Assembly (NCBI GenBank): GCA_913046215.1
Contig: CAJWRJ010000017.1
Span: forward strand, 1-34,839
Length of the DNA: 34,839 nt
Reading direction: 5' to 3'
DNA from: an uncultured Legionellales bacterium
GTDB lineage: Bacteria > Pseudomonadota > Gammaproteobacteria > Eutrophobiales > Eutrophobiaceae
Part shown: one piece after another, positions 6,871 to 33,899 of the stretch
Layout of the letters: every line of letters starts with the position of its first letter
How positions within the stretch are numbered: the first letter of the stretch is position 1
Translations under genes and position numbers: made by a program
Notes under the pieces: generated by a model
What the model saw: the letters and a program-made list of their open reading frames with translations, nothing else
What the model was told of the DNA's origin: nothing
Database searches by the model: none

Positions 6871-8589
6871 ATGAAATATATTTCTTTACAAACACTAAAA
6901 ATATTAATGTTTTTTGTACTAAGTGCCGGATATGTTTTTGCTGGTCAAAATGATTCAGCAAAAACAGAAATAACCGACGATGCAACTATCAGTGAGGAGG
7001 CTAGTTCGCCTTCTGCAGATGAAGTCGTCATTGATGAAAAAGATCAGAATTCAGAGCTTACCTTTGATGCAAACACCTCTTTGCCAGTTGATGTAATTCT
7101 GGTGTTAGATAACTCGGGGAGTATGAAGAAAAATGACCCTCAATTTCTAGTGGGAGCAGCAATAAAGGGTTTCATAAATCAAGCAAATGAAAATACTCGC
7201 ATAGGAATTATTATTTTTGATGCGAAAGCAGAACTTAAAGTTCCTTTAGCGGATGCATCATATGCAGATCGAAATGTAGTTTTGAGTAGTATTAAGGGAA
7301 TAGACTATAAGGGACAGTTTACCGATTTTCCTGCTGCTATCGAGCGTGCAATATATGAGCTCAAGGAAAATGCTCGTGAAAATGCACAAAAATCAATTAT
7401 CTTTATGACAGATGGCATTGTTGATACAGGAAATTCCGGTCGTGATATAGAAAAATCTAGGTGGATGCGAGAAGATTTAGCGGCCGATGCTTTTGATAAT
7501 CAGATTAAAGTAATTGGTATTGCTTTTACAGAAGCAGCTGATTTTCAGTTAATTCAGTCGATTTCACAACAAACATCTGGAAAGTATTTTCGTGTGTTGG
7601 CTGCAGAAGACTTACAAAATGTTTTTATAGAAATTGATGAAATTATAAATCAAATACCAAATGCATCATTAACAGCAGAAACAGATAAGGAATTGATAAC
7701 CAGTACTGCTGAGATTGATAAGACACAAAGCGCACTGAATGAGATAGATAAGACCGTTGATACAATGCAGCCTAGAATTGAAGCGGTCGAAAAAGCTCTA
7801 TATGAAATAGAAGAACCAAGCTTATTTGCATTTAATTTGTTTTCTGCAATTGCATTACTTTTATTGATTTTGACATTATTATTTTTGTTTTTATGGCGAA
7901 AGCGCATATTAAAAGGTGGTGATGATGACTTTTTTCAAGAAGCCTATATAAATGATCCAAAAGGAAAGACTAACAAGCAGGCACACATCCTTGATCAAAG
8001 ACCAAAAATGATCGGGCGTGTTGCAGGAAAGGATATAGATCATATGGATTATATCGTTGTTAATGAATCAACAATTAGTCGTCGGCATGCTCTTATAGAA
8101 TATAAGGACTATTCATTTTGGATTATTGACCAAGGAAGCAGTAATGGTACTTTTATAAATAATGAAAGAATCGAAAATGAAGTTAGGTTAAAGCATGGAG
8201 ATAAAATAAGACTTCACAACTATGAATTTGATTTTATTGTCCCAGAGATGGACGAAAATGATGAGACAATTGTTTATACTCCAGGTATGTCCGTAGTAGA
8301 TGATATGAATTCAAATGCAGGATCTGTGCCTAATGAAATAACTTATGGACTAGAGGAGATTGCGAATACTCCAAATAAAGAAAAGATCGCACCAGTCAGT
8401 AGTAAATCGGAACTACCTGACGGTGAAGAAGTAACAGTGATAAATAATACTAATGATGACAGTGTTGATCTTGATTCGAGTGAAAATATTACTAATTTGA
8501 CTAATGATGACGTTGATGGTGCAACGATAGACGATGATGACGATGATGACGATGACGATACAACTGTAATAAGCACTATTAATAATTAA
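6871..8589 (+). CDS. Membrane protein with periplasmic vWA and cytoplasmic FHA domains
   Basis: A 572-aa protein. A signal peptide (cleavage near VFA24) is followed by a vWA domain (about 74-260) with an intact MIDAS: D80-x-S82-x-S84, T151 and D181. A helical region with Lys/Glu repeats (about 265-315) leads to one transmembrane segment (318-342) and a stop-transfer WRKR. Then comes an FHA domain (about 371-457; GR 382-383, SRRH 403-406, SSNGT 423-427). The topology implies a metal-dependent adhesion or sensing domain outside and phosphothreonine reading inside. The acidic tail carries TxV-type motifs (DETIVYT, EEVTVI and ten Asp then TTVIS). The partner kinase is not in the window and the function is unknown. 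Whether it works with the other FHA protein is inference. Confidence 0.85.
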   Translation: MKYISLQTLKILMFFVLSAGYVFAGQNDSAKTEITDDATISEEASSPSADEVVIDEKDQNSELTFDANTSLPVDVILVLDNSGSMKKNDPQFLVGAAIKGFINQANENTRIGIIIFDAKAELKVPLADASYADRNVVLSSIKGIDYKGQFTDFPAAIERAIYELKENARENAQKSIIFMTDGIVDTGNSGRDIEKSRWMREDLAADAFDNQIKVIGIAFTEAADFQLIQSISQQTSGKYFRVLAAEDLQNVFIEIDEIINQIPNASLTAETDKELITSTAEIDKTQSALNEIDKTVDTMQPRIEAVEKALYEIEEPSLFAFNLFSAIALLLLILTLLFLFLWRKRILKGGDDDFFQEAYINDPKGKTNKQAHILDQRPKMIGRVAGKDIDHMDYIVVNESTISRRHALIEYKDYSFWIIDQGSSNGTFINNERIENEVRLKHGDKIRLHNYEFDFIVPEMDENDETIVYTPGMSVVDDMNSNAGSVPNEITYGLEEIANTPNKEKIAPVSSKSELPDGEEVTVINNTNDDSVDLDSSENITNLTNDDVDGATIDDDDDDDDDDTTVISTINN

Positions 8590-10462: not shown

Positions 10463-10536
10463 GCCCCGATAGTTAAATGGTATAACCGATGATTTGTAAT
10501 CATCTATTGGGGGTTCGATTCCCTCTCGGGGCTCCA
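10463..10536 (+). tRNA. tRNA-Thr (anticodon UGU), encoded CCA
   Basis: A complete cloverleaf: acceptor GCCCCGA with TCGGGGC, D stem GTTA/TAAC with loop AATGGTA, anticodon stem GATGA/TCATC with loop TTTGTAA (anticodon TGT at 10495-10497), and T arm GGGTTCGATTCCC. The discriminator base is U73, followed by encoded CCA (10534-10536). It reads ACA. The D-arm, T-arm and U73 resemble glycine tRNAs more than the usual threonine tRNAs (GCTC D stem, A73). The threonine call rests on the anticodon and on G1-C72 and C2-G71. Confidence 0.93.
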
Positions 10537-10582: not shown

Positions 10583-12133
10583 ATGAAAATAGTCAGATAC
10601 ATTATCTTAACTACTTTATTAAGCATTGTATGTGTAATCAATTCTAGCGCGGAGATTACATACGATAAGATTCAGTTACTTATAGAAAACGATAAACATA
10701 AAGAAGCACTTAATTTAACCGAAGATTACCTTTCTCGCAATAAGTCCGATATTAAATTTCAGTTTTTAAAAGGTTTAATTCTGGCCAGATTAAATAGATA
10801 TAACGATGCAGAAAAGATATTTTACAAAATGGCAGAGGAAAATCCTAATCTACCCGAACCTCTAAATAACTTAGCGGTAATTTATTCAATTCAGGGAGAA
10901 TATTCCAAAGCTCAAGAAATACTTAAAAAAGCATTAGAGTCTAACCGAAATTATGAGACAGTTTATCATAATCTAAGCGATCTTTATGCCAAAGTTGCCA
11001 GCCGTGCATATAATCAAGCACTTGGTATTTCGCAAACCGAAAGAGGACCAGTAGAGAAACTATTGTTTCTTAGAGAACTAAATTTACCTCAAACTATGCT
11101 TATTGAATCTTTGAATCGTGAAAATAAAGAGCTTAAAAGTGTAATGAAGGATACAGAAAAAGTACTTGAAGAAAATAAGCTTGCTATAAAAATTAAAAAT
11201 CAGGAATTATCTAAATTAGGAGAAGCTCAGAGATCAATTCAAAAATTAATGCAAGAGAAACTTGAGCTTAATATAGAGATTAAAGAGTTGAAGGGTTCTT
11301 TGGATGAGGTTATGTATTCCCTTTCACTTAAAGATGAACAATTAGCTAAGCTTGATGAAACAGAAAAAGCACTTGCAGGATTAACAAATGAAAATAAAGG
11401 TTTAAAGGATCGATTAGTAAAAGCCGAAGCATCATTAGGTCAATTGAGTAGCTCCCTTTCACTTAAAGATGAACAATTAGCTAAGCTTGATGAAACAGAA
11501 AAAGCACTTGCAGGATTAACAAATGAAAATAAAGGTTTAAAGGATCGATTAGTAAAAGCCGAAGCATCATTAGGTCAATTGAGTAGCTCTTTAATTCTTA
11601 AAGATGAACAATTAGCTAAGCTTGATGAAAATTTAAATAATATAAATGCAGCTGATTTAAAAAAAGAAAACTCTAATCTCAAAAGTAAAGTTAATGAGAC
11701 CGAATTATTGCTTGAAGAACTTAAAAAATCAGTGGCTGATGGGGCAGAGGATCCTAGTCCTGATATAGGTCAAAAAACTAACAAACTGAGCGAACAGAAA
11801 AAAGCCATAGAAATAGCTATTAATAATTGGGTAAATGCATGGGCATCAAAAAATATAGATAATTATATTTCAAGTTATGCAATGGAATTTAAGCCCTCGA
11901 GAGGATTAAGTAGAGCAAAATGGGAATTGCAAAGACGAGAACGTCTAGCCAATCCGTCTTTTATCAAGATAAAATTGACTAATATAAAAATAGAAATTCG
12001 TGATGATGGTCTAGCAAATGTAAGATTTACACAGCAATATCAATCAGACTCATATAAAGATGAGGTAAAAAAAATAGTAACAGTGAAAATGATTAATAAT
12101 AAATGGTTAATTATGCGAGAGCGAGTTCTTTAA
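10583..12133 (+). CDS. Exported TPR / coiled-coil protein with Csd6-like C-terminal domain
   Basis: A 516-aa protein. The signal peptide ends near residue 23 (NSSA-EI). TPR-like helices cover about 25-150 (NEDKHKEAL-type and LNNLAVIYSIQGEYSKAQEIL). A long coiled coil covers about 185-400. An NTF2/SnoaL-like domain covers about 405-516 (INNWVNAWASKNIDNYISSY ... KWLIMRERVL). The same C-terminal domain type ends the next gene, whose ATG overlaps this stop by one base, so the two are probably translationally coupled and may act together at the cell wall. The coiled coil includes a 45-residue perfect tandem repeat. The function is inferred only as a scaffold. Confidence 0.8.
   Translation: MKIVRYIILTTLLSIVCVINSSAEITYDKIQLLIENDKHKEALNLTEDYLSRNKSDIKFQFLKGLILARLNRYNDAEKIFYKMAEENPNLPEPLNNLAVIYSIQGEYSKAQEILKKALESNRNYETVYHNLSDLYAKVASRAYNQALGISQTERGPVEKLLFLRELNLPQTMLIESLNRENKELKSVMKDTEKVLEENKLAIKIKNQELSKLGEAQRSIQKLMQEKLELNIEIKELKGSLDEVMYSLSLKDEQLAKLDETEKALAGLTNENKGLKDRLVKAEASLGQLSSSLSLKDEQLAKLDETEKALAGLTNENKGLKDRLVKAEASLGQLSSSLILKDEQLAKLDENLNNINAADLKKENSNLKSKVNETELLLEELKKSVADGAEDPSPDIGQKTNKLSEQKKAIEIAINNWVNAWASKNIDNYISSYAMEFKPSRGLSRAKWELQRRERLANPSFIKIKLTNIKIEIRDDGLANVRFTQQYQSDSYKDEVKKIVTVKMINNKWLIMRERVL
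11318..11632 (+). repeat. 135-bp perfect tandem duplication plus partial third copy
   Basis: Copy 1 (11318-11452) and copy 2 (11453-11587) read identical base for base. A third partial copy (11588 to about 11630) matches over about 43 bp with changes near its start and then diverges. The unit is 45 codons, so frame is kept. In the protein it lengthens the coiled coil (residues about 246-335) by heptad-like units containing KDEQLAKLDE and LTNENKGLKDRL. Confidence 0.95.
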
Positions 12134-13347
12134 TGAACATAAAATATAAAATTATAGCATCAGTATTATTTTTCCAAATAAATTTTTTATTTGCTGAAAA
12201 TAATTTCGAAAAGAATACGTCCTTAACTGTTGAAGAAGTGTCTATATATTCAGAAAAGGTTTTAATTGATGCGCTTGATTTTGTTAAGAATGGTAATGTA
12301 GATGAAGCCATTGAAAAATTGGAAAAATTGATAGAATTAAACCCAAGTTTTAATGCAGCACAACTTATTTATGCCGATTTAATGTTATCCCGCTCCCAAC
12401 CAATCACTGATTTCGGAAATATAACAAATGCACCATATACACGTATAAACTCATTACTAAGTGAGGTAAAAGCAAGGTGGAATTTTCATAAAGCAACAAT
12501 TGATAACAATAAAATACCATCATCCTTAATAAAGTTAGCTAATAGCCAAAGCCATGTAATTGTGGTTGATGCTTTAACTTCGCGTTTATTTCTCTTTGAA
12601 AATAACAATGGTGTTCCAAAATTAAAAAGCGATTTTTATGTAACTATAGGTAAAAATGGAACGGGAAAATATGTTGAGGGAGATCAAAAAACTCCAATCG
12701 GAGTTTATTTTGTGACAGGTTTTATTCCATCAGAGGATTTACCCGATCTATATGGAGATGGTGCATTTCCAATCAATTACCCAAATGCTTGGGATCGGAG
12801 TCACAATCGAACTGGATATGGAATTTGGTTGCATGGGACCCCAAGCAAATTTTATAGTCGTGCTCCAAAAGATAGTGATGGTTGTGTTATTGTAAGTAAT
12901 AACGATCTTAATACTTTATCTCGATTTATAGATGTGGGTGAAACCCCCATTGTTATTGTTGACAACATCAATTGGATAACAAAGGATGAATGGGAAAAAA
13001 GAAATACCAGCTATAATTTATTTGTTGAACAGTGGCGTCAAGATTGGGAAAGTCGAAATGTTGGGTCGTATTTAAGTCATTACTCAAAGGATTATACAGG
13101 ACTTGGTAAAAATTATGATTCATGGGTTGAATATAAAAGTAGAATTATTCCAACAAAAAAATTTATTAAAGTTGATTTATCAAATAAAAGCGTTTTCGTT
13201 TATCCAGAACCAATCAATTTAATGGTTGTCACTTTTATGCAAGATTATAGTAGTGATACCTTTAGAAAAAAATTTCTAAAAAGGCAGTATTGGAAAATGG
13301 AGCAAGATGGTAAGTGGCGTATTATTTTTGAGGGTGCTGCATCCTAG
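12133..13347 (+). CDS. YkuD-family L,D-transpeptidase/carboxypeptidase with Csd6-like C-terminal domain
   Basis: A 404-aa exported protein. The signal peptide ends near FLFA21. A helical TPR-like stretch (about 45-85) precedes a YkuD domain (about 141-275). The catalytic motif is complete: H234 in IWLHGTP and S248-D-G-C251-V. An NTF2-like domain (about 293-402) follows, as in Helicobacter Csd6, which trims peptidoglycan peptides. It is either an L,D-transpeptidase or an L,D-carboxypeptidase; domain order favours the Csd6/YafK group. The ATG at 12133 overlaps the TPR gene stop (TAATG). The in-frame upstream start lies inside the previous gene and lacks a signal peptide. Confidence 0.88.
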   Translation: MNIKYKIIASVLFFQINFLFAENNFEKNTSLTVEEVSIYSEKVLIDALDFVKNGNVDEAIEKLEKLIELNPSFNAAQLIYADLMLSRSQPITDFGNITNAPYTRINSLLSEVKARWNFHKATIDNNKIPSSLIKLANSQSHVIVVDALTSRLFLFENNNGVPKLKSDFYVTIGKNGTGKYVEGDQKTPIGVYFVTGFIPSEDLPDLYGDGAFPINYPNAWDRSHNRTGYGIWLHGTPSKFYSRAPKDSDGCVIVSNNDLNTLSRFIDVGETPIVIVDNINWITKDEWEKRNTSYNLFVEQWRQDWESRNVGSYLSHYSKDYTGLGKNYDSWVEYKSRIIPTKKFIKVDLSNKSVFVYPEPINLMVVTFMQDYSSDTFRKKFLKRQYWKMEQDGKWRIIFEGAAS

Positions 13348-13353
13348 TCATTC

Positions 13354-14247
13354 TTACTCAGGATCATAATCATAATTTTCTTGTATTACATTGCCGTCAT
13401 TCTCAACAATATTTTTACGTAGCCAGCCCACCATATCACCCCAAATATTAGAAATTTCTTCTTTTGTAGGCATGATTCCAGCGTATGAGAGCTCCACTGT
13501 AATTGTAGGAATTTGACGTTGAACACCAGCAAAGTTTCCTAGAGATCCCGGGTAGGTACCAAGATAGCTTAAGGGTAAACTTCCAAATTTATCTGGTGCA
13601 GCTCTAGGACCATCATGATCAATTAATCCGTATGGTGCATGGATAGCTACAATTACATCAGGACGAAAAGTATTTATGTGTCCTACTAACCAGTTACTTT
13701 CTGGTTCACTTAGTGCTTCTGGACCTGGGTAGTATCTTGGATCCTTACCTTTTTTATCTATCCAGTATTTTATTGCCGTATTCTCCCAATCAGGTATTGG
13801 AAAATTACGATTTAAATCAACATTATTTTCGTTCATTCGCTGCGAATTTTTTCTTAACAAACCATCTGGATTTAATAATGGAACAATATGCCAGTGAAAT
13901 AGACCGCTATGATGTTTGTTTAGTATATTTAGCCATTTGAAGACCACGCTTACTGATGAATATTCATCGCCATGAGTACCACCTATTAGCAATACTTTTC
14001 CAAGGGGCAGGCGATTCTCCAATGGAGGGTATTCTTTTAGTAAAATTGGATCGCCCTTAACCGACTGCCCTTCAGTTGTAGAAAATTTCATATCCATACA
14101 TTCTTGGATACTAACACTCCCCAATTTATTTCCAATTTTTTCACATTGATTTTTAACAATATGATTGTTGGTATCTGCATTTAAAACTAATGGAAATAAG
14201 AATATAAGCAGAGTAGTTTTTAATAAAAATAACATATTAATATTCAT
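13354..14247 (-). CDS. Periplasmic M14 zinc peptidase, murein-peptide amidase-like
   Basis: A 297-aa protein with a signal peptide (MNINMLFLLK..., cleavage near LNA-DT). M14 metallocarboxypeptidase ligands are visible: H92-G-D-E95 in GGTHGDEYSS, H203 in AIHAPYG, and catalytic E252 in TVELSYAG, with the substrate motif DLNRNFP at 144-150. It resembles MpaA-type enzymes that cut muropeptides, but unlike cytoplasmic MpaA it is exported. The start was set at ATG 14247 because the longer frame opens with TTG; an ATG four codons later is also possible. It overlaps the ubiA stop by 11 nt. It converges on the YkuD gene, forming a cell-wall cluster. Confidence 0.83.
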   Translation of the reverse strand: MNINMLFLLKTTLLIFLFPLVLNADTNNHIVKNQCEKIGNKLGSVSIQECMDMKFSTTEGQSVKGDPILLKEYPPLENRLPLGKVLLIGGTHGDEYSSVSVVFKWLNILNKHHSGLFHWHIVPLLNPDGLLRKNSQRMNENNVDLNRNFPIPDWENTAIKYWIDKKGKDPRYYPGPEALSEPESNWLVGHINTFRPDVIVAIHAPYGLIDHDGPRAAPDKFGSLPLSYLGTYPGSLGNFAGVQRQIPTITVELSYAGIMPTKEEISNIWGDMVGWLRKNIVENDGNVIQENYDYDPE

Positions 14248-33143: not shown

Positions 33144-33899
33144 ATGACATTAAGAATATTTTTTTTACTCATCACTATTTTTTTCAATGGGAATGTTTTA
33201 GCTGAAAAAGAATATGATGCTATTGAATTTCGGGAGCTAAATTTGTCGCTTATCGCTGCGGCTAGAGATGGAGACATAGATAGTGTAAGAAAACGTCTTG
33301 ATGAGGGCGCGTCAATTAAGGCGAGAAATCGCTTTGGTAATACAGCGCTGATCTCAGCAACAAGAGCCGGTAATCTTGACATTGTTAAGTTGCTTGTCGA
33401 GGAGGGCTCAAATGTCGATATGTTAAATACCAATGCTGAAACTGCCATAATGAATGCTGCATCACGAGGACATGAGGACATAGTCAGGTATCTAATCGAT
33501 AAGAATGCTGATATTCACAAGCTGAGTGTTAAAAATATTTCAGCACTTATGGAGGCTGTTTTTGCTAATCATGAATCCATAGTAAAAATCTTTCTTAAGT
33601 TGTACGCAGATGTAAGTGTTATTGATTGGTCGGGAAAGACAGCACTTAATTATGCATCAGCAAATGGTAATGTGAAGATTATTAAGTTACTAGTGGAGCA
33701 TGGAGCGGATATTAATCGTCAAACTAAGAATGATTTAACATCATTAATGTGGGCAACAGGCTATCAAAAAACCGAAGCTGTAAAAATTTTATTACAATTA
33801 GGCGCTGACAAATCGTTAAGAGATAATCGCGGTTTAACGGCATTAATGATCGCAAAAGAGAATAATTTCAAGGAAATCATTAAGCTTTTAGAGCAGTAA
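33144..33899 (+). CDS. Exported ankyrin-repeat protein
   Basis: A 251-aa protein. A signal peptide (cleavage near VLA-EK, residue 20) precedes about seven ankyrin repeats covering nearly the whole mature protein. Repeat 2 is GNTALISATRAGNLDIVKLL and repeat 5 is GKTALNYASANGNVKIIKLL, each followed by a GADI-type turn. Repeats 1, 4 and 6 are degenerate. Ankyrins bind protein partners; a periplasmic location recalls AnkB-type proteins. Its partner is unknown. It follows the small lipoprotein and is convergent with a cytochrome gene. Confidence 0.88.
   Translation: MTLRIFFLLITIFFNGNVLAEKEYDAIEFRELNLSLIAAARDGDIDSVRKRLDEGASIKARNRFGNTALISATRAGNLDIVKLLVEEGSNVDMLNTNAETAIMNAASRGHEDIVRYLIDKNADIHKLSVKNISALMEAVFANHESIVKIFLKLYADVSVIDWSGKTALNYASANGNVKIIKLLVEHGADINRQTKNDLTSLMWATGYQKTEAVKILLQLGADKSLRDNRGLTALMIAKENNFKEIIKLLEQ

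Follow-up and report, generated by a model that had tools for sequence, protein, structure and literature searches.

A widespread gene pair encoding a TPR protein and a putative Csd6-type LD-carboxypeptidase that share the Cds6_C domain

Csd6, Pgp2 and Bd1075 represent an enzyme family that sets helical or vibrioid cell shape in Helicobacter, Campylobacter and Bdellovibrio, respectively, and how the trimming of the wall comes to be directed to one side is an open question (PMC8938487; here and below, statements from cited papers, other than the term search of PMC8938487, refer to the parts of their text available to us). The NTF2 domain of Pgp2 was described as seemingly restricted to helical cells (PMC8038945). 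Here we analyse a stretch of 34,839 nucleotides (the whole of which is called the window) from an uncultured Legionellales bacterium (contig CAJWRJ010000017.1), in which two overlapping genes encode a tetratricopeptide repeat (TPR) protein, hereafter T, and a YkuD enzyme, hereafter E, each ending in an NTF2-like domain of the Cds6_C family. The pair was found to recur far beyond the spiral-shaped bacteria in which this domain was first studied.

A recurrent gene pair with a common C-terminal domain

The pair and its domains are located as follows.

10583-12133, + strand: T gene, an open reading frame of 516 aa; signal-peptide-like N-terminus, three TPRs, coiled coil, Cds6_C at aa 411-513
12133-13347, + strand: E gene, 404 aa; signal-peptide-like N-terminus, helical TPR-like N-terminal domain, YkuD domain (H234, G235, C251), C-terminal Cds6_C
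12131-12135, + strand: TAATG overlap of the T stop and the E start; putative translational coupling
11813-12121, + strand: Cds6_C domain of T; pocket residues Y428, F436, R451, Y486, K497, E513
13021-13332, + strand: Cds6_C domain of E; pocket residues Y313, Y321, K335, Y372, K383, E400

The TAA of T (12131-12133) and the ATG of E (12133) have one A in common, so the TAATG overlap given in a preliminary description of the locus is correct. A longer frame for E begins at ATG 12103; this start is less likely, because that at 12133 would place a signal-peptide-like stretch at the N-terminus of E. Both proteins are predicted to be periplasmic. The preliminary description also held that both end in an NTF2-like domain of the Csd6 kind and suggested a profile comparison of the two, and each search agreed with it. 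By Pfam, T carries TPRs plus Cds6_C (PF24125; aa 411-513, E-value 1.6e-15, 57.8 bits against a gathering cut-off of 27), and E carries YkuD (aa 141-275, E-value 6.1e-20) plus Cds6_C (aa 297-400, E-value 2.8e-25, 89.2 bits). Profile-profile alignment of the C-terminal domains, with 60 sequences on each side, returned 99.5% probability (E-value 1.3e-22, 26% identity over 108 columns). Since each domain clearly exceeds the Pfam cut-off and the two profiles align with each other, a common domain rather than a chance likeness is indicated. Nor did the C-terminal folds prove unrelated: for the structural model of T, the best Foldseek match was Bd1075 (116 columns, the length of the Bd1075 NTF2 domain, at 1.8 Å), with Pgp2 and Csd6 ranking high too. 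Cds6_C was detected at an E-value of 0.001 or below in all 60 T proteins (that of the window plus 59).

To survey the pair, one genome per species was scanned with a 14-sequence alignment, and the loci discussed are the best 80 of at least 523 confirmed candidates. Adjacency of T and E was counted with hidden Markov models; clustering of neighbouring genes, which is inflated by overlapping shadow frames, was used for clear cases only. A second frame with Cds6_C immediately precedes E, in the same orientation, at 76 of the 80 loci, mostly in Gamma- and Betaproteobacteria. The pair is thus real and widespread, and the two-gene module of the preliminary description does co-occur in other genomes. 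After setting aside eight of the 76 loci where the T frame is cut short or its start is unassignable (for example L083, 96 aa), 68 measurable pairs remained, 33 of which overlap by one base (18 pairs, spacing −1) or four (15 pairs, spacing −4). Rhodocyclus purpureus, Nitrosovibrio tenuis, Propionivibrio limicola, Azoarcus sp. and Aromatoleum tolulyticum are among the hosts. The survey contradicts the restriction of the NTF2 domain to helical cells.

That E commonly occurs without T was considered and rejected. Of the four loci lacking an adjacent T, two (L094 and L117) lie at contig ends, and no second full Cds6_C match was found in their genomes; the genome of the third (L093) holds another T-E pair (G490:C35), and that of the fourth (L146) has T on another contig (G491:C31). 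Among 96 relatives searched for Cds6_C, 46 matched (45 over the cut-off), and 40 of these, read by eye, have two same-strand matches 1.1-1.4 kb apart; the YkuD motif was read in 30 of the 40, the other 10 being outside that reading. The six matching relatives without paired matches are G398, G399, G400, G481, G484 and G485. In a sample of the phylum, at least 127 of 398 genomes match Cds6_C, and further examination of 22 genomes (20 of them from this sample) located the pair in additional families. One of these is family f5, in which T retains its Cds6_C but that of E gives weak scores; in one of its members, G082, a YkuD frame adjoins T and its Cds6_C is undetectable. Neighbourhoods vary by clade while the pair stays: coaX, an M14 peptidase gene and ubiA at the window, and, in the Betaproteobacteria examined, an arrangement we take to be cysS or glnS, T, E and a peptidyl-prolyl isomerase gene (L105 7430-12389; L071 2655-8066), presumably followed by lpxH in L071.

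The functional implication of the shared domain was approached through Pgp2, where substitutions of Y233, F242, K257, K307 and E324 did not restore helical shape and gave fewer tripeptides, K307A weakened wall pull-down, and the NTF2-like pocket binds peptidoglycan (PMC8038945). In T these five residues correspond to Y428, F436, R451, K497 and E513, each kept in 60/60 sequences, with Arg in place of K257. In E, alignment maps them to Y313, Y321, K335, K383 and E400, and among 60 sequences the columns hold Y in 54 and F in 6, F in 52 and Y in 8, K in 60, K in 59 and E in 60, respectively. Y274 of Bd1075 likewise maps to Y486 of T (59/60) and Y372 of E (60/60). Both domains are basic (median isoelectric point 9.8 in T and 9.3 in E), and a basic value of 9.4 is reported for Csd6 (PMC4599014). 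Judged from these alignments, the feature conserved in both Cds6_C domains is the peptidoglycan pocket known from Pgp2.

The enzyme and its TPR partner

By homology, E is a predicted LD-carboxypeptidase of the Csd6/Pgp2/Bd1075 type, an assignment made because of its sequence matches, predicted fold, active-site residues, retained D-Ala contacts and lack of an Arg two positions after the catalytic Cys (C+2). Searched against the PDB with phmmer, E matched Bd1075 (4.4e-49), Csd6 (2.2e-24) and Pgp2 (1.4e-19), and the same three proteins lead the Foldseek list for its structural model (7o21 first, E-value 1.1e-28, then 4xzz and 6xj7/6xj6). Pfam YkuD and Cds6_C were each found in 60/60 E proteins, and H234, G235 and C251 are each invariant in the 60; one lineage carries the motif HGY...TRGCF. 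The Pgp2 residues that touch D-Ala, E107, Y130 and W155 (PMC8038945), correspond to E182 (56/60), Y207 (60/60) and W232 (60/60). Arg at C+2 is typical of most LD-transpeptidases (PMC8938487), yet this position is V, I, A or T in E and Arg in 0/60.

That E is instead an LD-transpeptidase, or an amidase of the DpaA/YafK type acting between lipoprotein and peptidoglycan, is quite improbable. E does belong to the YkuD family, with a weak DpaA match in NCBIfam and DpaA at Foldseek rank 7. However, the missing Arg speaks against a transpeptidase, the score with the DpaA equivalog NF040599 is 14.8 bits against a cut-off of 365, and Csd6, Pgp2 and Bd1075 match far better and have the same complete two-domain layout. 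In NCBIfam, no above-cut-off model naming T or E was found.

T has no catalytic domain and appears to be soluble rather than a lipoprotein. All 60 T proteins match several TPR models. The second and third TPRs (mean entropy 1.00 bits) are conserved similarly to the catalytic domain of E (1.18 bits) and more strongly than either Cds6_C domain (1.82 bits in T and 1.50 in E). Such strong conservation points to a conserved protein ligand of the TPRs, which may be E or another envelope protein. In E, the N-terminal region is predicted to form four helices with a weak TPR match below the Pfam cut-off.

Between the TPRs and Cds6_C, T of the window carries an expanded coiled coil with a tandem repeat.

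11318-11630, + strand: coiled-coil tandem repeat in T; 135 bp (45 residues), in frame, 2.3 copies, the first two units identical in DNA

At 516 aa, T of the window is longer than in 68 relatives (304-414 aa, with starts that were set heuristically). The idea that T is generally a coiled-coil scaffold was rejected, since aligned relatives have a short Pro/Ala/Lys-rich linker there; the expansion was seen in T of the window, G401 and G402. In the congener G402, the repeat is a different one, again exact and of 135 bp (L208 3883-4190); it is 68% identical to the window unit and reaches the contig end, while no repeat was detected in the coiled coil of T in G401. As the repeats of the window and of G402 are internally exact yet mutually diverged, the number of units appears to change and the copies to be homogenised within each genome. 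The coiled coil of T would thus form a rod of variable length, with repeat variation seen only in the window's genus.

Candidate joint action and the wider use of Cds6_C

We consider it fairly probable that T is a peptidoglycan-bound TPR adaptor that positions E. In such a scheme, E would be a periplasmic LD-carboxypeptidase that takes the terminal D-Ala off tetrapeptide stems while its Cds6_C pocket keeps it attached to the wall. T would grip the wall via the equivalent pocket, binding neighbouring stems and displaying its highly conserved TPR surface, and the TPRs would, directly or via a third protein, position E or restrict where it acts. The outcome would be a patterned rather than uniform trimming of stems, after which, in this family, an M14 peptidase would remove meso-DAP from the resulting tripeptides. 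The pair may also affect cell shape. Direct contact between T and E stands at somewhat less than an even chance.

The putative last enzyme is encoded next to the pair, and a tRNA gene lies on its other side.

13354-14235, − strand: convergent gene for an MpaA-like M14 peptidase with a hydrophobic, signal-peptide-like N-terminus; possible tripeptide-to-dipeptide step
10463-10536, + strand: tRNA-Thr(TGT), 46 bp upstream of T; context only

The best matches of the M14 protein are to MpaA (4AXV, 5.4e-16), although it scores 81.2 bits against a cut-off of 157 for the MpaA equivalog NF007897; neither Csd4 nor Pgp1 is named among the 12 PDB chains that it matches at an E-value of 1 or below. H89, E92 and H200 are invariant, and N-termini hydrophobic, in the window and 17 relatives. 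Of 40 relatives that have the pair, 38 also have this gene, against 4 of the 56 that lack the pair (Fisher 9e-20) and, within the family, 36 genomes have both, 1 the pair only, 2 the M14 gene only and 14 neither (7e-10), both values being inflated by lineage and linkage. In G479 and G484, the M14 gene lies on a different contig from the Cds6_C matches. T, E and the M14 gene are missing together from the congeners G398 and G400, albeit in assemblies only 92 and 80% complete, respectively. In C. jejuni, the tripeptide produced by Pgp2 is cut to a dipeptide by the DL-carboxypeptidase Pgp1 (PMC3961634); by analogy, the M14 peptidase probably removes meso-DAP from tripeptides after E has acted, as Pgp1 does after Pgp2. 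Elsewhere in the window, one gene (6871-8589) encodes a VWA- and FHA-domain protein whose acidic tail is of low complexity, with short repeats at 8436-8555, and another (33144-33899) encodes an ankyrin-repeat protein of 251 aa.

How T might position E was considered in several ways. In the preliminary description, the NTF2-like domains were proposed to join T and E as a heterodimer that positions the enzyme, which would fit their homology, the gene overlap and the near-constant adjacency. However, Bd1075 is monomeric (PMC8938487), as is a recombinant Pgp2 construct, albeit one without the N-terminal helices and from a protein that its authors expect to form oligomers in the cell (PMC8038945), and the dimer interface of Csd6 is 82.7% N-terminal domain and only 11.6% NTF2-like (PMC4599014). 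Moreover, in Csd6 the sheet of the NTF2 domain packs against the catalytic one via I278, Y280, Y290, V292 and Y316 (PMC4599014). The four of these positions that could be mapped, F355, Y357, V365 and T367 of E, are hydrophobic in 100, 53, 93 and 2% of E sequences, respectively, and the same positions in T (471, 473, 479 and 481) in 10, 27, 7 and 7%. As E is strongly hydrophobic at two of the four and T at none, this face is probably occupied in E and polar in T; a hydrophobic exposed face on both partners was not found. T also stands beside a YkuD frame without detectable Cds6_C (G082), or without E in some genomes. An NTF2-NTF2 heterodimer was therefore not borne out and is very improbable.

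Contact through the N-terminal parts, with each Cds6_C binding the wall independently, is conceivable but somewhat doubtful. In a profile comparison, the four N-terminal helices of E weakly matched TPR1 of T (74.6%, E-value 2.6e-5), the TPRs of T are highly conserved, and Csd6 dimerises through its N-terminal helices (PMC4599014). Yet the N-terminal domain is the least conserved folded part of E (mean entropy 1.88), and a TPR match at an E-value of 0.001 or below was found in just 3/60 E proteins.

Cds6_C is also found outside the pair. The window's genome has four matches: T, E and two in one protein of 838 aa (G000:C1, L063 6206-8722), which carries them as N-terminal domains and is flanked by multihaem cytochrome genes; its C-terminal half resembles an outer-membrane barrel by eye only, with no Pfam match there. 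Similar proteins with two N-terminal Cds6_C domains are present in congeners (L073, L074, L166 and L167). Other fusions join Cds6_C to a SurA-like chaperone (L155), Sel1 repeats (L172), SPOR (L173), BamE (L174) and TPR proteins (L164/L165), of which that of L164 has a lipoprotein-like start. The pocket set is complete in the 24 domains aligned (allowing the conservative swaps F/Y and K/R) save the first copy in L164, which is not alignable past K497. Because the pocket is kept in such varied company (SurA-like, BamE, SPOR, Sel1 and barrel-like proteins), these sequences suggest that Cds6_C is a portable wall anchor.

The fusions also bear on a further alternative, namely that T and E are co-expressed and both bind peptidoglycan without touching each other, T serving, for example, outer-membrane assembly. 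BamE, SurA-like and barrel-like proteins are unlinked to trimming, T occurs without E, and the conservation of its TPRs could suit any partner. On the other side, E is seldom without T, which accompanies it in 40/40 relatives with a pair-type E match (by eye) and at 76/80 loci whose neighbourhoods differ by clade, and we regard this alternative as unlikely.

Several observations weigh against T as a wall-bound adaptor of E. Although the chance that all five pocket columns of T fall among its 13 invariant columns of 107 is as low as 1.2e-5, membership of the Cds6_C family itself biases toward pocket conservation. Both domains of Pgp2 are required for strong wall binding (PMC8038945), and an isolated Cds6_C might, by analogy, bind the wall weakly. 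E has no equivalent of Bd1075 W303, which is required for convex-face targeting in Bdellovibrio (PMC8938487): position 401, after E400, is Gly in 56/60 sequences. No YkuD match to E accompanies T in at least two genomes that are nearly complete (G093 and G034), and T is therefore not dependent on E everywhere. Finally, physical linkage and common descent confound the statistics of the pair and of the M14 gene.

Taken together, the sequences would fit a broader reading, held tentatively and at slightly under even odds, in which several Pseudomonadota lineages have joined Cds6_C, as a portable anchor to peptidoglycan, to envelope machines of unrelated kinds. The T-E pair would be one common form, with T as the wall-bound adaptor that patterns trimming, and T of the window's genus a rod varying by recently copied 45-residue units. 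SPOR, LysM and OmpA_C modules are comparable anchors in use. If true, a wall-anchoring module would be predicted on outer-membrane assembly factors.

Comparison with described systems

No description of the T-E pair or of the Cds6_C fusions was found among open-licence PMC titles and abstract openings, nor any mention of PF24125 in 20 of 143 matching open-licence PMC papers. Of the statement in the preliminary description that the module is little described outside Epsilonproteobacteria, one part stands, as no description of the T partner was found in these searches; the other does not, as the enzyme type has been published from Bdellovibrio (PMC8938487).

That enzyme, Bd1075 of Bdellovibrio bacteriovorus (PDB 7O21), has the same YkuD plus Cds6_C arrangement as E, is its best match in sequence and fold (33% identity in the fold alignment) and is the best fold match of T too, while its W303 extension is absent from E. 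The main text of its paper contains none of 'operon', 'TPR', 'tetratricopeptide', 'bd1074' and 'bd1076', and thus describes no T-like partner (PMC8938487). Csd6 of Helicobacter pylori (PDB 4XZZ) has the same order as E, namely helical N-terminal, LD-carboxypeptidase and NTF2-like domains, and is a homodimer through the N-terminal domain; the available part of its paper describes no second Cds6_C protein (PMC4599014). For Pgp2 of Campylobacter jejuni (PDB 6XJ6), each of the five pocket residues that were probed has a counterpart in both E and T. Pgp2 is an LD-carboxypeptidase acting before the DL-carboxypeptidase Pgp1, and no TPR partner is described in the available parts of its papers (PMC8038945, PMC3961634).

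The step proposed for the M14 protein, removal of meso-DAP from tripeptide stems, is that of Pgp1/Csd4 and of MpaA. MpaA of E. coli is cytoplasmic, whereas the M14 protein has a signal-peptide-like N-terminus. Adaptors of the NlpI type are non-catalytic periplasmic TPR proteins paired with wall hydrolases, from which T would differ in being apparently soluble and in having its own probable wall-binding domain. Non-catalytic, with the same predicted pocket, and placed beside E in ordinary Beta- and Gammaproteobacteria (Rhodocyclus, Nitrosovibrio, Azoarcus and Aromatoleum), T is a testable candidate for the part that aims the enzyme.

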